NCBI RefSeq assembly: GCF_019977735.1
Contig: NZ_AP025018.1
Location: 10,854,580-10,918,579, forward strand
DNA length: 64,000 bases
Source of the DNA: Calothrix sp. PCC 7716
Lineage (GTDB): Bacteria; Cyanobacteriota; Cyanobacteriia; Cyanobacteriales; Nostocaceae
Reading direction: 5' to 3'
Every line of letters starts with the position of its first letter. Position 1 is the stretch's first letter. The notes below the pieces were generated by a model that was not told the origin of the DNA, did no database searches, and saw nothing but the letters and a program-made list of their open reading frames with translations. The translations under genes were made by a program, and so were the position numbers. Below are positions 12,436 through 24,427 of the stretch, piece by piece.

Positions 12436-12693
12436 ATGTTAGATTCAGTAAGACCATCAATGCAAGAATCCGCGACCGATTCTAATACAAAAAAGGTTGC
12501 TATTAAAAATTGGAAAACTACAGCTATCGGTTGTGTATTATGTTGTAGTGGCTTTGTGGCATTTTCACCAAGCACTTTCGGTGGAGAACAGGCGCCTTTA
12601 GTTCAAGTATGTAAATATATTACTTCAGGAGGATTAGCAGTTCTAGGTATAAGTGCCAAAGATTTTAATGTTACTGGTAAAGATAAAGAGTAA
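12436..12693 (+). CDS. Small membrane protein, holin-like (copy 1)
   Basis: An 85-residue protein. After a polar N-terminus of about 25 residues comes NWKTTAIGCVLCCSGFVAF, a hydrophobic segment, then a Gly-Gly-Glu turn, and a second weakly hydrophobic stretch ending GLAVLGISAKDFNVTG. The pattern of one or two short membrane segments ending in AKDxNVTG resembles small phage-type holin or membrane proteins, but no lysis gene is nearby. A close paralogue follows at 12838, so the pair is a tandem duplication. Function is unknown. Confidence 0.6.
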   Translation: MLDSVRPSMQESATDSNTKKVAIKNWKTTAIGCVLCCSGFVAFSPSTFGGEQAPLVQVCKYITSGGLAVLGISAKDFNVTGKDKE

Positions 12694-12817: not shown

Positions 12818-12837
12818 TAATATTGGGAGCAACAATT

Positions 12838-13104
12838 ATGTCAGACCCAACTAAGCCAACAGTGTCAGAAGATTCTACTCAGACTTCAACAAATGTTGCA
12901 AAAAATGCAGTAGTCAAAAACTGGAAAACAACCTCTGTTGGTATAGTGCTTGCAATAACTGGCTTTATCGCATTCTCACCCAAGAATTTTGGTGGAGACC
13001 AAGCAATTATTGTAGAACTCTCAAAGTACATACATATGGGAGGACTAGCTGCACTTGGTATTGTTGCTAAAGACTATAACGTTTCGGGTGGGAGTAGAAA
13101 TTAG
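12838..13104 (+). CDS. Small membrane protein, holin-like (copy 2)
   Basis: An 88-residue paralogue of the preceding gene. The start is the ATG at 12838 (MSDPTKPTVSEDS); a TTG 15 bases earlier is less likely. NWKTTSVGIVLAITGFIAF, the FGGDQ turn and GLAALGIVAKDYNVSG align without gaps to copy 1, while the polar N-terminal 25 residues differ. Conservation of the core with a free N-terminus suggests both copies are functional. The role is unknown. The lasso cluster starts about 570 bases downstream, and I see no reason to include these genes in it. Confidence 0.6.
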   Translation: MSDPTKPTVSEDSTQTSTNVAKNAVVKNWKTTSVGIVLAITGFIAFSPKNFGGDQAIIVELSKYIHMGGLAALGIVAKDYNVSGGSRN

Positions 13105-13676
13105 TACAATAAGGCAAAAGCAAAAATAAGCTTGTTTAACTGCATTACCTTTGAAAGGTATTACGACAAGAGAATAGCCTGCTCCCGGCAGGCTAAATAT
13201 ACTTAAGCCTGTGAGCTTATTGCAAAATTGGGATGTTCCCGTTTTTGGGCATTTCGATTTCAAGTAAATTTTTCTACGTTTGTATTATTTTAATAATAAT
13301 TTTATAATAAGTTACAGACAAAAGTTACAGATAAACACCTAGGAACAATAATCTATAGGCACTTGGTAATATTTAGGTACTGTGACAAATAAAAATTTTG
13401 TGTATAGTTTGATTTTTAATTGTATCAGTAGTTTTTCTAGTCTATAATGTGATATTATTAACAAAGATAAAATTTGAAAAGCTTAGTCTTAATGCTTTTT
13501 AGGGTCTTTTACCAATAGCAGCGCTTTAAATCAGTCTTTGTAACTAAGCTACAGAGGTGAGAAGTAAGAAAAACTGAGTGGCGCCGTTCAAAAAGCTTTT
13601 TGAAGACAGTTAAAGTTTAACTACTATAGCTGTAAAGAAAATAAGTTTCGCAAACCTTAGTAAATATTGGTTCAAA
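13105..13676. other. 572-base leader region of the lasso cluster
   Basis: The first 150 bases hold a short hairpin, AGCCTGCTCCCGGCAGGCT (about 13177-13195), possibly a terminator for the small membrane protein gene. The rest is AT-rich and contains a sigma70-like promoter candidate (13420-13448), then about 230 bases of untranslated leader before the first lasso gene. No tRNA or known riboswitch was recognised. Confidence 0.5.
13420..13448 (+). promoter_or_regulatory. Candidate sigma70-type promoter for the lasso operon
   Basis: TTGTAT (13420-13425), a 17-base spacer, and a perfect TATAAT (13443-13448). It lies about 230 bases upstream of the B2 gene, implying a long leader. It was picked by eye in AT-rich sequence, so chance is possible. 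Confidence 0.4.
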
Positions 13677-14150
13677 ATGAAGTGGTTTAAGTCACTGCAT
13701 CGTAAAACAATGAACTTAATTTGTCTTTCCCAGCAAGAGCGTTTGCTTTTGGTACAAGCGTTTATTTTGCTGCCTACAATTGCATTTTCTTTACAAATAT
13801 GGGGAATGCAACGAACGCAGACAGTGCTTTTTGACCTAAGCGCTAAAACACTATTATCAATGCCATCTTCATCAGAAGTGCAACATCAAATTAAACAAAC
13901 AGCATTTCTAGTGGAAAAAGCCGCACACCACAGTCGTTTATGGTCAAATTGTCTTAGAAAATCTTTAGTTTTATGGTTCTTGCTACGTCGTCGAGGTGTA
14001 ATTAGTGAATTAAGAATAGGAGTACGGCGAGAGAATGCAAAATTTCAGGCACACGCATGGGTAGAATATCAAGGCATAGTTCTGAATGACCTGCCAAATG
14101 TGCGCGATCAGTTTGTGATGTTTGAAAGTTCCATTGAAGCAATAAACTGA
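13677..14150 (+). CDS. Lasso peptide leader peptidase, B2 protein
   Basis: A 157-residue protein of the lasso peptide B2 family (transglutaminase-like cysteine protease). It cuts the leader from the precursor. The predicted catalytic residues are visible: Cys92 in NCLRKSLVLWFLLRRRG, His126 in QAHAWVEYQG and Asp138 in LNDLPN. The N-terminal hydrophobic LVQAFILLPTIAF segment is normal for the family. Length (about 140-160) fits a stand-alone B2, with its partner RRE encoded separately by the next gene. It is the first gene of the cluster; the 199 bases before B1 contain no further gene. Confidence 0.9.
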   Translation: MKWFKSLHRKTMNLICLSQQERLLLVQAFILLPTIAFSLQIWGMQRTQTVLFDLSAKTLLSMPSSSEVQHQIKQTAFLVEKAAHHSRLWSNCLRKSLVLWFLLRRRGVISELRIGVRRENAKFQAHAWVEYQGIVLNDLPNVRDQFVMFESSIEAIN

Positions 14151-14349
14151 AACATTCGCTTATGCTAATTATCTTTCTTCGCAAATTAAACTTATATGGA
14201 TAATGTAGTAATTAGTTTGAAAATAATCCGGATGAAAAAGTGTACAATTGTAGATTATTTTATAAATGAGCTACAGTTTTAGCGGCTAGACTTGTGGATT
14301 TGAATTCAGGATGAGCTTGCTTGAGCAGCTTTAATAAAAACAGAGTAAA

Positions 14350-14676
14350 ATGAAAGAGATGGAACAAAAATACCGTCAGTTCACAATAGATGACAGTTTT
14401 CTAAAAACAGCTAGCTTCAAGCTAGTAGATGATATCCTTTTTAGCAATGTTGGAAATGAAGGAGTTTTATTGCATCTGAAATTAAGTGAGTATTACAGTT
14501 TGAATGAAACTTGCTTACCTTTTTGGGAAGCCTTGCAAAATCATCAACCTTTTGAGCCTGTAATTGAAAAAATGATTAGTGAATACGACGTTGAGCGAAC
14601 ACAAGTAATTTGTGATTTAAAAGCTTTCTTAACAGATTTGTTCAAGCTTGGACTATTATCGGAAATTTCTAATTAG
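14350..14676 (+). CDS. Lasso peptide RRE / PqqD-like B1 protein
   Basis: A 108-residue PqqD-like RiPP recognition element. It binds the leader peptide and presents it to the B2 protease and the cyclase. The wing and helices are recognisable: GVLLHLKLSEYYSLNETCLPFWEAL, then VIEKMISEYDVERTQVICDLKAFLTDLFKLGLL, the usual pattern of a Tyr-rich beta segment followed by helices and a final GLL. It lies 25 bases before the cyclase gene. The start at 14350 (MKEMEQKY) follows purine-rich sequence; a second ATG at 14359 (MEQKY) is also possible. Confidence 0.88.
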   Translation: MKEMEQKYRQFTIDDSFLKTASFKLVDDILFSNVGNEGVLLHLKLSEYYSLNETCLPFWEALQNHQPFEPVIEKMISEYDVERTQVICDLKAFLTDLFKLGLLSEISN

Positions 14677-14701
14677 GTATTGAGTTAAAGAAGTTGGGTC
14701 A

Positions 14702-16549
14702 ATGAGCGGAATTTTAGGTATTTGGAATAGCCAAAAGCCAACTCCTTGGCAGAGAATGCTAGATGATTTAACGGTATTCGGGCAAGATGGGAGAGGAGAT
14801 TGGCACGATACATCAGTAGGGTTAAGTTTAGGACGAGCGCAGTTTTTTAACACTCCAGAATCTAGTCACGAAGTACCTGTTATTGAGTATGAAGGTTGTG
14901 TTCTCGTTTGGGACGGTCGTATTGATGAACGCGAACCCTTATTAACTGGTCGCTCTAATGTCACCGACGCTCAATTAATTATTGAAAGTTATCGTCGCTG
15001 GGGAATTGAATGCTTACGACATCTCATAGGTGAATTTGTATTCATTTTGTGGGATGCGTCGAATGATTTGCTATTTGTTGGTTGCGATGTCGTTGGGGCA
15101 CGCACTATTGCGTATCACTGGGATGGGCAAACATTACTTTTGTCATCGCGCGTACTAACGTTGTTGTTGCATCCGCAAGTTAGCAAGGAGCTAGATCAAC
15201 TTTATCTGGCTCACACTATTTGTAATTTTTGGACACATCCGCCAGAAAGTACTGCTTTTGATAGTATAAAAAGGCTACTTCCAGGTCATGCACTGATTTT
15301 GAAATCAGGAGAACTACAAAAACGTAAGGTTGCTGAATTATATATAGCAGAGCGCTATCAATTACCCAAATCACAGGAAGACTACTACGAAAAATTTTGG
15401 TATATATTAAACCAATCAACTAAAGACCGCTTACGCAGTTATCGTTCTCCTTGTGTGATGTTAAGTGGAGGGCTAGACTCTACAACTGTCACTGTATCTT
15501 TATTAAATCAACTACCTTCGGTAGATGCGTTTTCTGCCGTAACAGAAGTTCATCCAGAGTTTGATGAGCGAAAACCTATCCAATCTTTCTTACAACGGTA
15601 TCCCCAGGTCAATTGGCATGAAGTTAATTGCGATGATGCTTGGGCATTCTCCGAACCTTGGGAGCGTTTACCTATTACTGATGACCCATATATAAATCCG
15701 ACATCATCAATGAATTTTCGATTGATGGAGCAGATGCAAAAATCGGGTTGTGGTCTTTATTTTGATGGTGAATGGGGAGATGAACTTTTTTATACAACGC
15801 TCTTAGATTTAGCCAAAACTGGTACTTGGCAACCAGTATGGGATTCTTTAAAAAATCAAAAGCCCTGGTACTCTAGTTTATGGCGAGAATTGTTTGTGCC
15901 TAACTTGCCAAAGTATTTGCAGAATAAATGGTTTGCAAGATGCCGACGTAAATATGGCTCGTTACCAACTTGGTTAACTCCAAGCTATCGCAATACACCT
16001 GAGATTAAGACTGCAATTCAACAATACTTTGAAAGTACTTTACCTGCCAGTCCTGGACAGATTGTAGCTCTATTAACGCAATCTGGTGGTTATGTAGGTT
16101 TAAGGCAAGTTGCGAGACTATTTAGCTACGTTCATCAAATGGAATATACTTCTCCTTTGCAAGATAAGCGATTAATGGAATTTACTATCAATCTACATCC
16201 ATCTCTACAAAATGATTCAGAACATTACAAAATTTTCTTGCGTAAAGTAAATAAAAATTACCTTCCTGCTGATGTATTATGGCGCCCAAAAGAAAATTAT
16301 TATGACCCACTTAAATATAATGGGTTAGGCAAAAGTGAATATGCTTTAAAGATGATGGATAAATTACAAAAATATCCAATTTTAGCAAATAGAATAGATA
16401 CAAATTGTCTGAAAAATAAGCTTCATTTCTTCCGCCAAGAATTCAATCAAAATTATAGTCATTGGCAATCATTCCACAATGACTTAGCTAATAAACTTTA
16501 TAAAACGTTAGTTTTGATTGACTGGTATGAAAGAATTCAAGCTTATTAA
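14702..16549 (+). CDS. Lasso cyclase (asparagine synthetase-like)
   Basis: A 615-residue class B asparagine synthetase homologue that activates the ring Asp/Glu side chain with ATP and forms the isopeptide bond with Gly1. The N-terminus is MSGILGIW: the usual glutaminase Cys at position 2 is Ser, so ammonia release from glutamine is not expected, as is typical of lasso cyclases. The PP-loop for ATP is SGGLDSTT (about residue 255). A conserved DGEWGDELFY-type segment (about residue 355) follows. Length fits the family. It sits between the RRE and precursor genes, the canonical neighbours. Confidence 0.92.
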   Translation: MSGILGIWNSQKPTPWQRMLDDLTVFGQDGRGDWHDTSVGLSLGRAQFFNTPESSHEVPVIEYEGCVLVWDGRIDEREPLLTGRSNVTDAQLIIESYRRWGIECLRHLIGEFVFILWDASNDLLFVGCDVVGARTIAYHWDGQTLLLSSRVLTLLLHPQVSKELDQLYLAHTICNFWTHPPESTAFDSIKRLLPGHALILKSGELQKRKVAELYIAERYQLPKSQEDYYEKFWYILNQSTKDRLRSYRSPCVMLSGGLDSTTVTVSLLNQLPSVDAFSAVTEVHPEFDERKPIQSFLQRYPQVNWHEVNCDDAWAFSEPWERLPITDDPYINPTSSMNFRLMEQMQKSGCGLYFDGEWGDELFYTTLLDLAKTGTWQPVWDSLKNQKPWYSSLWRELFVPNLPKYLQNKWFARCRRKYGSLPTWLTPSYRNTPEIKTAIQQYFESTLPASPGQIVALLTQSGGYVGLRQVARLFSYVHQMEYTSPLQDKRLMEFTINLHPSLQNDSEHYKIFLRKVNKNYLPADVLWRPKENYYDPLKYNGLGKSEYALKMMDKLQKYPILANRIDTNCLKNKLHFFRQEFNQNYSHWQSFHNDLANKLYKTLVLIDWYERIQAY

Positions 16550-16713
16550 CAGTTATATGTTCAGATTAATTATTATATTTAACCTATATAAATCAGGGTG
16601 CTGTTTATATGAACTTAATATTTAAATAATCTTTCCTCGTCATAGAGAAAGATTAAATAAACGGTGCATCTACATTAATTACTGAATTAACCATTACTTA
16701 AGGAATCTCAATC

Positions 16714-16923
16714 ATGATTTACGGAAACAATAACCCATCTGATTTGTCCTCAGCTTCATTGAAGAAAAGCTACTCAGCAATGCAAATTTCAAAGTTAGGT
16801 AGCCTTGCTGAAATGACTCTAGGTGGAACTGGAAGCAGAGGCGATGGAGGAAATACTGGATTCAATATGGGCATGGGCGGTGGCGGTGGTGGTATGAATA
16901 ATGACAATGATGACAATGATTAA
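16714..16923 (+). CDS. Lasso peptide precursor
   Basis: A 69-residue precursor. A leader motif of the YxxPxLxxxGxxxxxT type is present as Y20, M23 (in place of Pro), I25, G29 and T35. With T35 at the -2 position, cleavage after L36 releases a core starting GGTGSRGD (37-44). Asp44 is core residue 8, giving a predicted 8-membered macrolactam with Gly37. The tail is Gly/Met-rich with F50 as the only bulky aromatic, then a Gly6 run and an acidic Asn/Asp end. R42 is the only Arg in the whole peptide. A ribosome binding site (AAGGAA) precedes the ATG. The cyclase ends 164 bases upstream; the kinase follows 54 bases downstream. Confidence 0.85.
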   Translation: MIYGNNNPSDLSSASLKKSYSAMQISKLGSLAEMTLGGTGSRGDGGNTGFNMGMGGGGGGMNNDNDDND

Positions 16924-16977
16924 GTGTCAAATGATTTTATTGGAATAGATTAGCAAATTTTATGTTATGGGGGACTA

Positions 16978-17853
16978 ATGATGTTTACTAAGATTTTTGA
17001 AACAGCTGCGAGTGAACTGAATTATATCCCCCTTAGCATTGAGTTATCTTTAACGTCTGTTCCTACTTTGCCAGTCGCATATCATCCAGATTGCCTGCAA
17101 ATAGTCTGCCCGCAGCAATGCGGTGCAGACCAATACTGGATTCCTTGGACTGAGCAGCAAGGAGCTTGGATTTCTCCCGATGGTCGGAGTGCCGAAATTG
17201 TCGTTACTGAAAATACGCGAGATGCTGATTTTAGCCGTTCGATGACGATTGCTCTTGCAAATGTAATCGCAGGCGCCTGTTTAAATTTACAAAGACAAGT
17301 TGCAATTCATGCTAATGCTGTATCAATAGAAGGACGAGCCGTAGCATTTGCTGGTCACTCTGGCATGGGTAAATCAACTTTGACAGCTTTTTGCGTGAAT
17401 CAAGGTGCAGGATTCATCACTGATGATATTGTTACTGTAGATTCAGAAGGTTTAGTATATCCAGGCAATAACCGCATCAAGCTGTTTCCGCATACTGGAG
17501 AAAGTCTAGGCTTAGATACTTCATATGAGTTAGATTATAAAATTCACTATAATCCAGTGCAATTAGGTGTTAATGTACTACAAGGACCTGTTCCTTTGGG
17601 TATTTTGTATCTGTTAGCTGAGAGTAAAGGTGATAATATCTACTCGGAACAAGTTTCACCCAGCCAAACTGTATTTAATGTTTTACTCCATAGTTACTAC
17701 GCTAGCGAATTAATTCCTAATCATCCAGTATTACTTAATAGTTATGTACGCTTAGTCAATCAAGTTCAAGTACGAAAGCTGTACTATCCAAGAAACTTCG
17801 GGTTGTTACCCAAAGTATATGAATTTCTTACAAAGGAAGTATATAGATTATGA
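16978..17853 (+). CDS. HPr-kinase-like lasso tailoring kinase
   Basis: A 291-residue protein. The Walker A motif AGHSGMGKSTL (about residue 125) followed by GFITDDIVTVD (about residue 145) is the pattern of HPr(Ser) kinase C-terminal domains; the two Asp residues are expected to bind metal or phosphate. Homologues in lasso clusters phosphorylate the precursor, in known cases on a C-terminal Ser. This precursor ends DDND with no Ser/Thr near the end, so the target must be elsewhere (S41, T39, T48 or the leader) or the role differs. A strong GGGGGA binding site precedes the ATG. The stop overlaps the methyltransferase start (ATGA), suggesting translational coupling. Confidence 0.82.
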   Translation: MMFTKIFETAASELNYIPLSIELSLTSVPTLPVAYHPDCLQIVCPQQCGADQYWIPWTEQQGAWISPDGRSAEIVVTENTRDADFSRSMTIALANVIAGACLNLQRQVAIHANAVSIEGRAVAFAGHSGMGKSTLTAFCVNQGAGFITDDIVTVDSEGLVYPGNNRIKLFPHTGESLGLDTSYELDYKIHYNPVQLGVNVLQGPVPLGILYLLAESKGDNIYSEQVSPSQTVFNVLLHSYYASELIPNHPVLLNSYVRLVNQVQVRKLYYPRNFGLLPKVYEFLTKEVYRL

Positions 17854-18878
17854 GTTATTGGCTGGTTCAAGGTCATCAATCAATGACCTTTGATGCCCGA
17901 CGCAATCAAACTTACGCGGAAGCATTAGAAAAAATTATTACTCCTGAAAGCGTTGTCCTCGATTTAGGTGCAGGGCTTGGGATACACGGACTTTTAGCAG
18001 CCAAATTAGGAGCAAAGCGCGTTTATTTAGTTGAACCAGAAGATATTATTAGCCTTACTGATAAAATTGTCCAAGCCAATGGGTACAGCGCGCGTATTCA
18101 GTGTTTGCAGGGAAAAATCGAAGAAATTAATCTGCCCGAAAAAGTTGACGTAATAATCTCAGTGTTTACAGGAAATTTTCTTTTAGAAGAAGATTTATTA
18201 CCTTCGTTATTTTACGCCAGAGATAAATATTTAAAACCTGGCGGAGTGTTAATTCCTCAAGCAGCAGTAATGGAAGCTGTACCTGTATCTGCTCCAGAAC
18301 TATATGAAAAAAACATTGCTTGCTGGTCTGAACCTCATATGGAAATTGACCATAGTCCTGCGCGCGCTTTTGCCAGTCAATCAATTTACTACCGCGAAGA
18401 TTTAAAAAAAGCTAGATATTTAGCAGCACCCGCAAGCTTGTTAACACTAGATTTTCATGAAGCTAACAGCACTCACTGTGAATCAGAAGTGAAATATACT
18501 GTTACTGAATCGGGATTGTGTCATGGGTTTGCTGGTTGGTTTAAAATGCAGTTAGGTGATACTTGGCTTTCGACGGCGCCTCACGAACCTCCGTTACACT
18601 GGTCAGCAGCTTTTTTACCTCTTGACCCTCCAATTTATTTAGAAGCTGGTGAGGAAGTAACATTTAAACTTCAACGTCCACTCTATGGAGATTGGACTTG
18701 GCAAGTTAAAAATAATACCACTCAGCAAGTACGCTCGACTTTTTTAGGGGCGCCAAGAAGTATAAAAACTATTAAAAAACTTGGGTTAAATTACCAACCT
18801 CAAATTAATGAAAAGGGCAAAGCAGCACTTTACGTTTTATCCCATTGTGATGGCAGTTTATCAGTCGAAGAATTGTAA
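17850..18878 (+). CDS. PRMT-like SAM methyltransferase, C-terminus truncated by IS66
   Basis: A 342-residue class I methyltransferase resembling protein arginine methyltransferases. The SAM motif is VVLDLGAGLGIHG (residues 35-47) and the acidic loop is VEPED. SVFTGNFLLEED (104-115) aligns with the PRMT double-E loop: V105 replaces the first Glu, E114 keeps the second. YARDKYLKPGGVLIP follows exactly as in PRMTs. LHWSAAFLPL (about 249) matches the THW loop. The last normal codons are GAA GAA TT; an IS66 element then supplies G-TAA. Without the insertion the frame would continue 30 codons to 20811 (372 residues), completing a small PqqD-like helical domain. Activity of the shortened protein is uncertain. 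Confidence 0.85.
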   Translation: MSYWLVQGHQSMTFDARRNQTYAEALEKIITPESVVLDLGAGLGIHGLLAAKLGAKRVYLVEPEDIISLTDKIVQANGYSARIQCLQGKIEEINLPEKVDVIISVFTGNFLLEEDLLPSLFYARDKYLKPGGVLIPQAAVMEAVPVSAPELYEKNIACWSEPHMEIDHSPARAFASQSIYYREDLKKARYLAAPASLLTLDFHEANSTHCESEVKYTVTESGLCHGFAGWFKMQLGDTWLSTAPHEPPLHWSAAFLPLDPPIYLEAGEEVTFKLQRPLYGDWTWQVKNNTTQQVRSTFLGAPRSIKTIKKLGLNYQPQINEKGKAALYVLSHCDGSLSVEEL

Positions 18879-20709
18879 GGATTCAGGTGACCAGTGGGCA
18901 CCTCCTCCACAAAACTTTAAGCGAGTGACACCCGAAGGGTGTCACGGTGCCATAAAAATTAAATAAACAAGTACGTAAAAAACGCTGCGGTTGGTCTGGT
19001 GGGTCTTGACAAAGGTAACATGAGGGCAGATTATCTTTCATTATGGATAAAAACGAGCCTCTCAAACTAAGTCGCGAAAACCTCTTCCAGTTGCCACAGG
19101 AACAACTGGTGGATATGGTAATTGAGCAGGGCGAGTCAATTCAAGAATTAAAAAAAGTAATTACAGAGCTTGAAGCCGAAGTAAAGCGGCTAAAAGTAAG
19201 TCAAAGCCTAGATAGCAAAACCTCATCAAAACCTCCATCTGGAGATATCCTTAAAAAACCAGAAAAGAAAGAAGATAATACCAACTCAGACCCAGAGGCG
19301 CCAAAACGTAAACCAGGAGGTCAACCAGGTCACGTGGGTAAAACCCGTAAGGGTTTTGGCAGAGTTGACCGTTTGGAAATTTTACGCCCAGAAGTTTGTA
19401 GCTGCTGCGGCAATGCGTGTTTTGTAACAGAGCCAATAAAAATTGAAACACAGCAAGTAGCGCAGTTGGTGGAGCGCCCAATTGAAATAGTTGAGTATCA
19501 TCGCCATACATGTTTATGCGGGAATTGCGGTACCGAGCAAACTGCAGACTGGTCTATTAATATGGTTCCGGGTCAAGACTTAGGAATAAATTTACAGGCT
19601 TTGTTGGGGTGGATGAATAATTATGGACATTTGTCCTATGAAAAGCAACAAGAGCTTTTGTGGGAGTTAGGGAAGATTGAAATTGGGGTTGGAACCCTTG
19701 TTACTACAAATGAAAGAATAGATGCAGCAATCAGTAAAAGCGTCTCAGACCTTAAAGACTGGATACAAGATAATCAACCAAACATACATTCTGATGAAAC
19801 ACCTTGGATTGTTAAAGGTGTAAAAGAATGGTTGTGGATTTTTGCAAATACTGATTTTGCCTTGTTCCATGCGGCAGACACTCGCTCGCGCGCGGAGCTA
19901 GAAATGATTCTTGGACCAAATTATAATGGTGTGCTTAGTTCTGACGATTATAGTGTTTATAACGGCTATGATGTAAAAGCCCAACAAAAATGTCTAGCGC
20001 ATTTACGGCGCCACTTCAAAAAATTAATGAAACTTCCTGGCTTAAACAACCTAAAAATAGGGGAAGCTTTTGTCAAGTTAATCGATGAAGCGTTTAGACA
20101 CTACGCGGAGTTCCAACAAGAACAAGATATTTTGGATTTCTTTAGTTGGGCATCTGAGTTTAAAGTAAAAGTCGAATCTTCCATAAATGAATGGATTGAT
20201 ACAGCGGGAGGCGAAGCGGGCAAGCTTTTACGTTGTTTGCGAGACAAAGCACATCAATGGTGGTACTTTTTAGAACATCCAGAGATACCACCTGATAATA
20301 ATCAAGCGGAACGAACGTTACGTTTAGCTGTAACAAAAAGAAAAGTTAGTGGAGGTTCTCGTTCTATGGAGCGGTTCCAACATACTGCTAATTTATTGAC
20401 GATTGTACAAACTTGTCGGCGCCAAGGGCGTTCCGTGATTGAATTTTTTGAGCAAGCTCTACAAGCAATCGTCAACCCAAAAATACAAGCACCATCTTTA
20501 ATTCCTTAAATTACGACCTTGATTATGGGTAAAATTTCTGTACCTATATACGTTTTGTTAAAACGTGCGCCTTAAAGTAATTGTTATCTTTTCTCTTAAG
20601 TTCTGTTTATACTTTTTTATGAGCGTTTTTATGGCGCCGTGACACCCTTCGGGTGTCACTCGCTTAAAGTCTTGGAGAGGAGGCACCCACTGGTTACCTG
20701 AATTCTTAC
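18875..20709. mobile_element. IS66-family insertion sequence, 1835 bp
   Basis: The left end GTAAGGATTCAGGT and the right end, read inward, GTAAGAATTCAGGT are imperfect inverted repeats that stay aligned without gaps for about 80 bases. Both arms contain the internal hairpin GTGACACCC-GAA-GGGTGTCAC (18925-18945 and 20639-20659). The ends begin with GTAA, as usual for IS66. It is flanked by an 8-bp target duplication, GAAGAATT, at 18867-18874 and 20710-20717, again the IS66 size. It carries only a tnpC-type transposase. The element is complete and its transposase is intact, so the insertion appears recent. Confidence 0.93.
19043..20509 (+). CDS. IS66 family transposase (TnpC)
   Basis: A 488-residue intact DDE transposase. 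The N-terminus has a coiled coil (EQGESIQELKKVITELEAEV), then a Lys/Pro-rich linker with GGQPGHVGKTRKG, then a zinc finger (CSCCGNACF and CLCGNCG). The catalytic acids are placed in HSDETPW (about 251), SSDDYSVY (about 301) and NNQAERTLR (about 423), followed by the family C-terminus. The accessory tnpA and tnpB genes of larger IS66 elements are absent, as in the single-gene (ISBst12-like) group. Transcription runs with the lasso genes, so read-through could still reach the downstream exporter. Confidence 0.93.
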   Translation: MDKNEPLKLSRENLFQLPQEQLVDMVIEQGESIQELKKVITELEAEVKRLKVSQSLDSKTSSKPPSGDILKKPEKKEDNTNSDPEAPKRKPGGQPGHVGKTRKGFGRVDRLEILRPEVCSCCGNACFVTEPIKIETQQVAQLVERPIEIVEYHRHTCLCGNCGTEQTADWSINMVPGQDLGINLQALLGWMNNYGHLSYEKQQELLWELGKIEIGVGTLVTTNERIDAAISKSVSDLKDWIQDNQPNIHSDETPWIVKGVKEWLWIFANTDFALFHAADTRSRAELEMILGPNYNGVLSSDDYSVYNGYDVKAQQKCLAHLRRHFKKLMKLPGLNNLKIGEAFVKLIDEAFRHYAEFQQEQDILDFFSWASEFKVKVESSINEWIDTAGGEAGKLLRCLRDKAHQWWYFLEHPEIPPDNNQAERTLRLAVTKRKVSGGSRSMERFQHTANLLTIVQTCRRQGRSVIEFFEQALQAIVNPKIQAPSLIP

Positions 20710-20811
20710 GAAGAATTAAGCCATTATATAGTAAAAGATTTTCCTAATTTATTTTCTGACTCTCGGCAAGCTACCAAGTTTGTTCAAGGTTTAGTAGGCA
20801 GGTTTTCGTGA
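20710..20811 (+). pseudogene. Severed 3' end of the PRMT-like methyltransferase gene
   Basis: Right of the IS66 element, GAA GAA TTA AGC CAT reads EELSHYIVKDFPNLF and on to GLVGRFS and TGA (20809-20811). Joined to the left part after removing the element and one target duplication, it extends the methyltransferase in frame by 30 residues. The exporter starts 16 bases later behind AAAGGAAGAAAGC, confirming the original operon. Confidence 0.88.
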
Positions 20812-20827
20812 AAGGAAGAAAGCTGGA

Positions 20828-22630
20828 ATGACCTCCCTAAAAAAAGTTAAACAAGCATTACGTCTATTACCAGCGCTGCGTTTAGTATGGCAAGCTGCTC
20901 CTAATTGGACGCTAGTTTATATTATTGTGCTTGTTATTCAAGGTATTTTACCTTTGGTGCTGCTATATCTCACCAAACTAATTATCGATACAATTGTTGA
21001 AAGTGTTAATATTGTTGATAAAATAAGTAATTTTCAGCAGTTAATTACCCTAATAGCATTAACTGGATTAGTCACGCTAGCCACAGTTATTTGTAACTCA
21101 GGAGCAGAATTAGTTAATACCGCTCAATCACGGCGCGTTGCTGACTATATGAGCAGCATTCTTCACGCTAAATCAATTGAAGTAGACTTAGAATATTACG
21201 AAAATCCGCAATACTTTGATACTTTACAACGTGCCCAAAACGAAGCAACTTACCGACCCAATCGCATCCTTAATAATTTAGTATGGGTTGCTCAAAATCT
21301 AATTTCCCTAGTTACAATGGTAGGGTTATTGCTTTCACTCCATTGGGGTATAGCAGGTGTATTATTTGTTGCTGCCATACCAACAGTATTAGTGCGGGTT
21401 AAATTTTCCAAAATTCTTTACACTTGGCATCGAAAAAAAACAGCGATGGAGCGGCAAGCGGAATATCTCAGTTGGCTACTTATAGGAGATATTTTTGCTA
21501 AAGAAATTCGCTTGTTTAATTTAGGTACTCTTTTCAGCCAAAGGTTTGACCGTTTGCGTTTTCAATTGTACAAAGAGAATCTCGCTATTTCTAGCAAACG
21601 CGCGGTAGCTACGTTAATAGCTCAAGCTTTGGCAACTATTTTGATGCTCTCTGCCTACACATTTATAATTTATCAAGCATACCAAGGTATTATTCGTATA
21701 GGTGATTTAGTTCTTTATTACCAAGCGCTGCAACGTGGGCAAGATTCACTTAAAAGTGTATTAGGTAGTTTTTCTGCACTATATGAAGACAATTTATTTA
21801 TTGCAAATCTTTACGAATTTTTAGAGTTAGAACCAAAAATTATTCAACCAGCACATCCCCAACCTTTTCCTCAAATGCAGGATGGTATTAGATTTACTAA
21901 CGTTAGTTTCCAATACTCTACTACTACAAGGCAAGCATTAAAAGATATTAACCTGACGATTAAACCAGGGGAAGTAGTGGCATTGGTGGGAGAAAATGGT
22001 TCTGGAAAAACAACTTTAATTAAACTTTTATGTCGCTTGTACGACCCAACTAATGGTAGTATTACTATTGATGGTATTGACTTGCGTGACTTAGATGTCG
22101 TTGACCTACGGCGCCAATTTAGCGTGATTTTTCAAGATTACGTAAAGTATAATTTTACAGCACAGGAAAATATTTGGTTAGGAAATACTGACCTACCACC
22201 CACACAAGACAGTATAGCAGCAGCAGCACAGCGTTCTGGCGCCTATGATGTAATTAAACGATTACCTCAAGGTTACGATACAATGCTAGGAAAATGGTTT
22301 GACCAAGGTGAAGAACTTAGTATTGGTCAGTGGCAAAAAGTAGCATTAGCGCGGGCTTTTTTGAGAAATTCCCAAGTTATTGTTTTGGATGAACCAACTA
22401 GTGCAATGGATCCAAAAGCTGAAGCTGAGGTTTTTGATGGTTTTCGCAAGCTAATAAAAGGGCAAACTGCGATTCTTATTACCCATCGTCTAGCAACTGT
22501 GAAAATGGCAGATCAAATATTTGTAATGGACAAAGGCACAATTGTTGAGACTGGTACTCACGAGGAATTAATGCTTCGGGGAGGTACTTATGCTATTTTA
22601 TTTGAAACCCAAGCACAACACTACAGATAA
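20828..22630 (+). CDS. ABC exporter of the lasso cluster (D protein)
   Basis: A 600-residue half-size ABC exporter: an N-terminal membrane domain of about six helices (residues 20-310) fused to an ATPase domain. Walker A is ALVGENGSGKTTL (about 387), the signature is ELSIGQWQKVALARA, with Ile for the usual Gly in LSGGQ, and Walker B is VIVLDEPTSAMDP. No N-terminal C39 peptidase is present, in line with a separate B2 protease. The family exports mature lasso peptides and gives self-immunity. It is the last gene of the cluster, formerly 16 bases behind the methyltransferase and now separated from it by IS66. A strong ribosome binding site (GGAAGAAAG) precedes the ATG. Confidence 0.9.
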   Translation: MTSLKKVKQALRLLPALRLVWQAAPNWTLVYIIVLVIQGILPLVLLYLTKLIIDTIVESVNIVDKISNFQQLITLIALTGLVTLATVICNSGAELVNTAQSRRVADYMSSILHAKSIEVDLEYYENPQYFDTLQRAQNEATYRPNRILNNLVWVAQNLISLVTMVGLLLSLHWGIAGVLFVAAIPTVLVRVKFSKILYTWHRKKTAMERQAEYLSWLLIGDIFAKEIRLFNLGTLFSQRFDRLRFQLYKENLAISSKRAVATLIAQALATILMLSAYTFIIYQAYQGIIRIGDLVLYYQALQRGQDSLKSVLGSFSALYEDNLFIANLYEFLELEPKIIQPAHPQPFPQMQDGIRFTNVSFQYSTTTRQALKDINLTIKPGEVVALVGENGSGKTTLIKLLCRLYDPTNGSITIDGIDLRDLDVVDLRRQFSVIFQDYVKYNFTAQENIWLGNTDLPPTQDSIAAAAQRSGAYDVIKRLPQGYDTMLGKWFDQGEELSIGQWQKVALARAFLRNSQVIVLDEPTSAMDPKAEAEVFDGFRKLIKGQTAILITHRLATVKMADQIFVMDKGTIVETGTHEELMLRGGTYAILFETQAQHYR

Positions 22631-22733
22631 ACTTTTAAGATTTGATTTTAATAAGCAAGATGTCTAAATGGAAGTAAAAGATAAGCTATTACCAACGTAA
22701 TACTACTTCGTTAAGCTAAAAATGCAAAAATTA

Positions 22734-22757
22734 GTAGGTTGGGTTTACCCAACCTAC
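22734..22757. terminator. Palindrome between convergent exporter and rca genes
   Basis: GTAGGTTGGG, TTTA, CCCAACCTAC forms a perfect 10-bp stem. It lies between the ends of the exporter and Rubisco activase genes. It resembles other GTAGG(G)TGGG repeats here (56031, 62202), so it may be a dispersed repeat that also works as a terminator. Confidence 0.5.
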
Positions 22758-22804
22758 AATCATTCAAAACCGGGAGCAGTATTGCAATGGAACGTCTTTA
22801 CAAA

Positions 22805-24427
22805 TTACCTGGCCCCGTTTGGACGTTGAATAATTGTTTCCATAACTCGGCGCCTATTTTTTGGGTCGATAGCAACTAATCGAATATATTCATTGCTAAA
22901 GTCACCCAAAGATGACTCGATAGCAGAAACTAAATCGGACGCAGCGCTAATTTCTCCAACTGAACAGCTTTGCCATGAACCCATTTTAAAACGGCGTTCG
23001 TCAACGTGTTCAATACCTATTTTGTAACCCTTAGACAAGATTTCGCGAACTAGTTCTTGAGTCTCTAAGGTCAGATGGGTGCTGGGTGCTTGCTGTGTAT
23101 TTTCTGTGTATTGCTTGTAGTATTCTCCGTTATTTATAAGGGGTGTTGTAACTTGGTTTAAAGATGGTGCATTTGAAGGTGAATGATATGGTGTGCCAAT
23201 TGGTAGTTTAGGCGCCGACTTACTTAGCATTCCAACACCAGCTACAACTGGCGCCATAATAGGGGCGTGATTAGTTGGTTCCTCAACTACCTCTACAACA
23301 TGTTGTGTGTATGGTGTACCAAGAGGGGTTGCAGTCGGTTGTTTGTATGGTGTACCAGATGGCAAACTCGGCGCCGAATTAGCTAGCGTTCCAACACCAG
23401 CTACAACTGGTGCCATAATAGGCGCCGACCTATCTGGTGCTACAGATGGTGTGTTAAATGTTGTTGTTACAACTTCTGTAACACCCACATCATTACTATA
23501 AATTGGCGCTGGTAATGCTTCTACCCTAGATACAGCTTTACGCGAAAACAATCCACGATTATATTCTTCTACTAATTTAGAATTTTGTACGCGCTGTTGT
23601 TCTCCCACCATCAAATTACCCATTTCAATCAAATACGGTAATTTAAAGTTGGGTTTTCTAAATTGTGGCGGACCTTCAACACTGTTAACTACCCGCTGCG
23701 ATACCTTCTCTATACCAATTTCATGAATAAAGTGGCGGATTTGTTCGTCGTAAATGCGAGAACGCAAGGCGCTGAAAAAGTCAATAGACTGATTAATAAA
23801 GGTATCAACAAACTGTTCAATTTCACGACGCGATAATCCATCAGGCTCATAAATTCCACCGACAATACCAACTTTGTCATCACGGTCAGGTTCCCAATAG
23901 AACTTCTCCATGCGTCCATCGCGTACTAAAGGCGCATACAGCGTAGAGAAATCATTACCCGTAACAATAATTGGTATTCTGGGTAATGGTGTTGAGTCGT
24001 AACTACCCGGAAGTTGTACATCTGTTGGATTATCCGCAATATTCATCAATGTCGCGTTGACCAACTGCGTATTAACGGTGTACTGTGTTCCTTCATCAAA
24101 ACGTCCGGCGCCTGCATCCAAATCATTAATCATTAGTACGCACATCTTACCGCGTACTTTAGTTAACTCAGCAGTTTCTCTATAACGTAACCGAATCAAG
24201 CGCGCAGGGTCGCCAGCATCAGGACTTTCTAACTCCCCCCCAGATATCAGGGTGAATTCAATACCCATTCTCTCAAAAACTAATTCGCATTGGAACGATT
24301 TTCCTTCACCCTTACGTCCGTGAATACCCAAAATCAACGGAACGCGCACAGCAGGTAGATTTAAGAAATTTTTAGTAATGTGTACGGCAAGTTTATCTAG
24401 AAATTTCGGAGCGATGTAATAACCCAT
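22805..24427 (-). CDS. rca: Rubisco activase with C-terminal small-subunit-like domain
   Basis: A 540-residue protein. The AAA+ domain has Walker A HGRKGEGKSFQ (about residue 38) and Walker B CVLMINDLDAGAG (about 97); AAA+ activases remodel inhibited Rubisco to release sugar phosphates. The N-terminus MGYYIAPKFLDKLAVHI and the region to about residue 300 match cyanobacterial activase. A Pro/Thr/Ser-rich linker follows (about 305-445). The last 90 residues (from LETQELVREIL, through RFKMGSWQSCS, to RRVMETIIQRP) form a RbcS-like domain as in CcmM, which tethers the protein to Rubisco in carboxysomes. The linker contains two copies of an APIMAPVVAGVG block. It is convergent to the lasso exporter. 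Confidence 0.92.
   Translation of the reverse strand: MGYYIAPKFLDKLAVHITKNFLNLPAVRVPLILGIHGRKGEGKSFQCELVFERMGIEFTLISGGELESPDAGDPARLIRLRYRETAELTKVRGKMCVLMINDLDAGAGRFDEGTQYTVNTQLVNATLMNIADNPTDVQLPGSYDSTPLPRIPIIVTGNDFSTLYAPLVRDGRMEKFYWEPDRDDKVGIVGGIYEPDGLSRREIEQFVDTFINQSIDFFSALRSRIYDEQIRHFIHEIGIEKVSQRVVNSVEGPPQFRKPNFKLPYLIEMGNLMVGEQQRVQNSKLVEEYNRGLFSRKAVSRVEALPAPIYSNDVGVTEVVTTTFNTPSVAPDRSAPIMAPVVAGVGTLANSAPSLPSGTPYKQPTATPLGTPYTQHVVEVVEEPTNHAPIMAPVVAGVGMLSKSAPKLPIGTPYHSPSNAPSLNQVTTPLINNGEYYKQYTENTQQAPSTHLTLETQELVREILSKGYKIGIEHVDERRFKMGSWQSCSVGEISAASDLVSAIESSLGDFSNEYIRLVAIDPKNRRRVMETIIQRPNGAR

Follow-up and report, generated by a model that had tools for sequence, protein, structure and literature searches.

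A predicted lasso peptide cluster with a kinase and a PRMT-like methyltransferase gene, interrupted by an IS66 element, in Calothrix sp. PCC 7716

Organisation of the lasso peptide locus

The window, by which we mean the whole stretch of 64,000 nucleotides analysed here, is set in the 12.37-Mb genome of Calothrix sp. PCC 7716 (G000:C1:10854580-10918579). Positions 13677-22630 hold seven lasso peptide functions in the order B2, B1, C, A, K, M and D, all on the forward strand (Table 1). A first-pass annotation made from the sequence alone had called this a complete lasso cluster with its genes in this order. The lasso call is borne out by family or motif matches for the seven functions and by homologous precursors in relatives, and the gene order is correct, but the annotation left out the IS66 transposase reading frame that stands between M and D. 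The word complete does not hold, since the IS66 element lies within M, costing it about 30 C-terminal residues, and stands between D and the other genes. The region quite probably encodes the making and export of a lasso peptide and has been damaged by a recent IS66 insertion, its activity being predicted from the genes present.

In B2, the catalytic residues were found as Cys92, His126 (in HAW) and Asp138. B1 scores under the cut-off of model NF033536, and C scores under that of NF033535, the NCBI cyanobacterial lasso cyclase model (237.5 bits, cut-off 525). The N-terminus of C is Met-Ser, so that it is without the N-terminal Cys that is a feature of glutamine-using enzymes. The reading frames of K and M share 4 bases, and AAGGAAG precedes the ATG of D. 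Apart from M, the cluster has open reading frames throughout, and motifs were found wherever these were checked. Adjoining the left side of the cluster, at window positions 12436-12693 and 12823-13104, are two tandem, related small-protein genes, in a flank that is syntenic in congeners.

The closest clusters are those of genomes G091, G538 and G185 (Myxacorys californica WJT36-NPBG1, a cyanobacterium placed in the class of the window's strain), which have the leader stretch YSA[MI] in common with the window and whose proteins are 54-60% (C; 60% for G091 and 54% for G185), 46-54% (K) and 65-76% (D) identical to those of the window. M is also present, uninterrupted, in G538 (73%) and G185 (66%), whereas in G091 it is absent from the fetched stretch. 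Unlike the window, which has B2 in the cluster, G538 has no B2 at its lasso locus and two B2 genes elsewhere in the genome.

Table 1 Features of the lasso peptide locus, in window coordinates.
Feature	Position	Strand	Evidence or remark
Segment missing at the locus in 6/6 congeners, one with a 79-bp B1 relic	13097..22809	.	
B2, leader peptidase, transglutaminase-like cysteine protease	13677..14150	+	NF033537, 86.7 bits (cut-off 33); PF13471
B1, RiPP recognition element, PqqD family	14350..14676	+	PF05402, 48 bits (cut-off 23.4)
C, lasso macrolactam synthetase, asparagine-synthase-like	14702..16549	+	PF00733; SGGLDS motif
A, precursor peptide, 69 aa	16714..16923	+	Homologous precursors in relatives; AAGGA nine bases 5' of ATG
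Leader of A, residues 1-36, KKxYxxMxIxxxGxxxxxT	16714..16821	+	Comparison with relatives' precursors
Core of A, residues 37-69; predicted Gly1-Asp8 isopeptide ring; Gly6 tail, Asn/Asp end	16822..16920	+	
K, HprK/PEPCK superfamily, probable lasso precursor kinase	16978..17853	+	HKDD motif
M, PRMT-like methyltransferase, cut short by IS66	17850..18878	+	PF22528, 49.6 bits (cut-off 27)
Left copy of 8-bp target-site duplication	18867..18874	.	
IS66-family element, imperfect inverted ends	18875..20709	+	1835 bp
IS66 transposase	19043..20509	+	NF033517, 289 bits (cut-off 180)
Right copy of 8-bp target-site duplication	20710..20717	.	
Severed 3' end of M, beyond the IS	20718..20811	+	G538 M piece matches window 20704-20808
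D, ABC exporter	20828..22630	+	PF00005; Walker A

Precursor leader and predicted ring

Neither Pfam nor NCBIfam gave a model match for A. A precursor that occupies the same gene position in G538 is 51% identical to it across 43 residues (E 1e-10 in a two-sequence BLASTP, a single comparison), and A was also found in G091 by tblastn (L083, E 3e-4). Because of these related precursors, A is not a chance ORF. Its leader carries Y20-M23-I25-G29-T35. When set against the motif YxxPxLxxxGxxxxxT, Tyr(-17), Gly(-8) and Thr(-2) are kept, while Pro(-14) is replaced by Met and Leu(-12) by Ile, which agrees with the partial fit described earlier. The closest precursors have Met (G538), Met (G185) and Ile (G091) at -14, and Ile, Val and Ile at the motif's Leu place. 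The leader without Pro, common to the three closest relatives, seems to be characteristic of the subfamily and not a flaw.

The core consists of GGTGSRGD followed by 25 residues (33 aa in all), with a Gly6 run and a single aromatic residue, F14. Asp8 is the first acid and the sole one within positions 1-27, the others being at 28, 30, 31 and 33. The hydroxyl residues are Thr3, Ser5 and Thr12; there is no Ser past position 5, and the C-terminal residue is Asp. Among the closest precursors, the core reads GMSGNYPD plus 26 residues in G538, GNGGYLCD plus 19 in G091 and NMNVGRYTD plus 20 in G185, which places the ring acid at Asp8 in the first two and at Asp9 in the third. Ring closure at Asp8, as first proposed, therefore gains support from two of the three closest precursors, and a Gly1-Asp8 ring is a well-supported prediction.

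The core among cyanobacterial lasso precursors

The long core with one bulky aromatic residue had been called unusual for a threaded peptide. For comparison, a B2 search of 386 genomes in the phylum gave 37 with a match, 32 of them above the cut-off; 46 B2 places were listed, and regions were fetched only around those above the cut-off. The loci compared comprise 37 fetched regions, 10 regions around M matches, the G538 locus and the window. A relaxed motif scan of these loci yielded 60 candidate precursors, 9 of which were removed by eye as chance ORFs, leaving 51 with the window's included. For counts by position we removed three rows without K and one mis-split row (L070), and then three near-duplicates, giving 44 non-redundant K-cluster precursors. 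The 48 K-cluster precursors include eight from four loci without a cyclase match (L060, L061, L062 and L065).

The core is at least 33 aa long in 18 of the 51 candidates, the longest having 63, and 19 of 51 (one being a mis-split row) have at most one F, W, Y or H. This cyanobacterial sample thus contains many long cores poor in aromatic residues, and within it the earlier remark does not hold. With a Gly fraction of 0.42, the window's core ranks first among the 51. An acid stands at core position 7-9 in 30 of the 44 non-redundant precursors, and at position 8 in 12 of them; Asp also occupies position 8 in three G382 (L058) precursors, preceded in two by a Gly/Ser-rich stretch.

According to a 2026 review in its available text, pandonodin, at 33 aa, has the longest tail among characterised lasso peptides (PMC13352647), a total length that the core of A would equal if untrimmed. 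Sample cores of up to 63 aa go beyond this value and make it plausible that long tails are trimmed after maturation, so that a 33-residue lasso would not be the final product here, or the ring might close at another residue. We regard such an outcome as unlikely, in view of Asp8 being the only acid in core positions 1-27 and of Asp also occupying position 8 in G538 and G091.

Two other groups of loci came to light in this sample. L060, L061, L062 and L065 are B1-K-B2-D loci with normal lasso leaders and cores of the form [QA]VGGS[GR]GFxTT without an acid at 7-9, and no cyclase match was found within their fetched stretches; they are perhaps another RiPP using the lasso leader and protease. L067 and L074 have a cyclase and cores of the form QVKPKKLG[AS]SDDF, also without an acid at 7-9.

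The kinase and its candidate acceptor

K matches the HprK_rel and Hpr_kinase_C profiles under the cut-off, and its predicted structure (pLDDT 86.4) has PEP carboxykinase and HPr kinase as nearest Foldseek matches. His-Lys-Asp-Asp is present in K and is kept in 32 of 33 cyanobacterial K rows, the window's included; one row (L075) is a misread fragment. The kinase is common, being found in 26 of the 31 fetched loci with a cyclase-like match.

Reviews, in their available parts, describe lasso kinases as targeting a C-terminal Ser (PMC9266682, PMC8498205). Such a residue ends only 4 of the 48 K-cluster precursors (4 of 29 loci), or 4 of 40 when the loci without a cyclase match are left aside, and A does not offer this PadeK-type acceptor, its core ending in Asp. 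A common lasso kinase with 44 of 48 candidate precursors not ending in Ser makes the acceptor a testable question. The one exception that we found to the C-terminal-Ser descriptions is BsfK, whose precursor, in the account available, ends in Asp and has a Gly1-Asp8 ring, and which phosphorylates Ser3 and accepts Thr3 (PMC10368454). With Thr3, the core of A carries a candidate acceptor at the position used by BsfK. Ser or Thr occupies this position in four of five M-bearing lasso cores (window, G538, G213 and G314), the exception being G185, whose core starts with Asn; G091, among the closest relatives, has Gly there. Across the 44 non-redundant precursors, position 3 is not enriched in Ser/Thr (8 of 44 have one there, compared with 13 for position 5 and 16 for position 10), so that the choice of Thr3 rests on analogy with BsfK; with modest confidence, we propose Thr3 as the acceptor of K. 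We rejected the idea of the acceptor as a conserved Ser/Thr column, no column being prominent in the 44 precursors.

The PRMT-like methyltransferase

The PRMT fold with its C-terminal barrel domain is found in the window's M through PF22528 and in the G538 homologue through sequence (E 3.6e-37 against PRMT6) and a model (pLDDT 85.9) with structural matches to PRMTs. In the double-E loop, where PRMT6 reads SEWMG...HESM, M reads SVFTG...EEDL, with the first Glu replaced by Val and the second kept. The first Glu is Val in the window, G185 and G538, and Asp in the more distant lasso-linked G213 and G314 and in the lasso-unlinked G116; of these last three, only G213 retains the second Glu. Loss of the first double-E Glu should impair arginine binding, and arginine is probably not the target of M. 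An active arginine methyltransferase working on core Arg6 would fit the resemblance of the G538 homologue to PRMTs in sequence and model, and the presence of Arg in four of five M-bearing lasso cores. However, the first Glu is Val or Asp in the lasso-linked M proteins and the G213 core has no Arg, and we hold arginine methylation to be improbable.

All four lasso-linked M proteins free of an IS have a tail of about 60 residues; among seven other aligned homologues, a weakly similar tail was seen in G053 only. In the AlphaFold model of G538 M, helices span 309-318, 325-335, 343-353 and 361-375; the link that precedes or overlaps them is poorly predicted, with pLDDT under 50 at 303-321. About half of the tail is gone from the window's M. 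As a tentative proposal, plausible but short of probable, M may be a PRMT-fold enzyme taken over by lasso clusters, which would have lost the first Glu and acquired a helical domain at its C-terminus, with precursor binding as a possible role, acting on a non-arginine target beside a ring-acting kinase. The tail as a second RRE is not supported (hhalign probability of 1.1% against B1), and intact M gave no PqqD match. The open-access literature searched contained no lasso peptide with an arginine methyltransferase or PRMT, save for a lasso mention in a reference list, and M might represent a new tailoring reaction.

The IS66 insertion in M

The transposase belongs to the DDE_Tnp_IS66 family by profile match. 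The element is flanked on either side by GAAGAATT, a target-site duplication of 8 bp, the length expected for IS66 elements; the first 60 bases and the reverse complement of the last 60 agree at 53 places. The reading frame of M ends 4 bases inside the left end of the element, making the protein about 30 aa shorter than intact M (373 aa in G185, 376 aa in G538). The empty site was shown by joining the flanks of the element, for display only. A second copy at G000:C1:4775629-4777462 is 100% identical across the 1834 bases searched, which suggests that the insertion is recent.

Congeners and distribution

Both flanks of the cluster are adjacent in six of six congeners (G431-G436), and a search with C at E 1e-60 found no cyclase in them. 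In G431 and G432, window position 13096 is followed by 30 bp and then by window position 22810. G436 retains, at the syntenic locus (G436:C79:61937-62015), a 79-bp relic of B1 that is 98.7% identical to window 14505-14583, and G433 has a 52-bp match to window 13143-13194, upstream of B2; a DNA search of the congeners with 13100-18870 gave nothing beyond these two matches. Given the B1 relic, the G436 lineage either carried all or some of the cluster in the past or gained and lost it through recombination, and loss is the simplest reading. The relic at the same place also weakens the notion of a fresh island confined to the window's strain.

These data bear on whether the window's cluster is itself a decaying remnant without product, in which the breaking of M by IS66 and the uncoupling of D would lead on to a near-total deletion such as that of the congener. 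The insertion within M with its target-site duplication, the identical second copy that points to recent transposition, the 79 bp that are all G436 retains and the absence of the cyclase from all six congeners are in line with decay. On the other hand, the remaining cluster genes are open, with motifs kept where checked and AAGGAAG before the ATG of D, and the sister cluster of G091, without M in its fetched stretch, indicates that M is not essential to the type. A promoter scan gave 25 promoter-like sites where 28.9 are expected by chance, a frequency that cuts neither way on a promoter for D. Taken together, we consider a remnant without product somewhat unlikely, and keep to a damaged cluster with predicted activity.

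Farther afield, a plasmid search with C returned 243 records, all below 60% identity. A genome-contig scan found no relative of M and, for C, the Myxacorys locus as the only match. The window's genome has a second lasso locus at G000:C1:7052000-7071500 (L071), with tandem sets B1-C-A-K-D and B1-B2-C-A-K-D, a single B2 and cores beginning ILGSSSRRD and GGSTGNFLD.

Proposed pathway and comparison with known systems

From the gene content we infer a pathway in which B1 would hold the leader of A, K would probably phosphorylate a hydroxyl group in the ring part of the still linear precursor, Thr3 being the likeliest site, and M would methylate a group that is probably not arginine. B2 would then cleave after residue 36, C would link Gly1 to the side chain of Asp8 around the tail, and D would export the product. 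With the recent entry of IS66, M has lost the last part of its C-terminal tail and D is severed from the genes before it, and the product may arise without the modification by M or be poorly exported. The cluster would thus combine two tailoring enzymes, K and M, whose predicted targets depart from the textbook.

The bsf cluster of Bradymonas sediminis, as far as the available account describes it, shares with the window the split B1 and B2, an HprK-like K and D, as well as the Gly1-Asp8 ring (predicted here), a C-terminal Asp and a hydroxyl residue at core position 3 (PMC10368454). The two differ at -2, with Ile in bsf and Thr in the window; bsf also includes an N gene, which is lacking among the ORFs of the window cluster, and that account lists no methyltransferase, whereas the window has a PRMT-like M that carries IS66. 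Paeninodin-type clusters share the lasso genes and an HprK-like kinase with His-Lys-Asp-Asp; in the parts of the review available, PadeK and ThcoK use a C-terminal Ser (PMC9266682), whereas the window's core ends in Asp with no Ser after position 5. The same source describes lassomycin-like clusters with the O-methyltransferase StspM or LasF, which have a methyltransferase gene in a lasso cluster in common with the window; StspM was modelled on mitomycin-7-O-methyltransferase (PMC9266682), whereas M resembles PRMTs, with an extra tail in its intact homologues. Finally, L018:13228-14988 and L020:9726-10925, adjoining the lasso clusters of G185 and G213, were noted by eye as a putative N nucleotidyltransferase of phosphoglycosylated lasso clusters.
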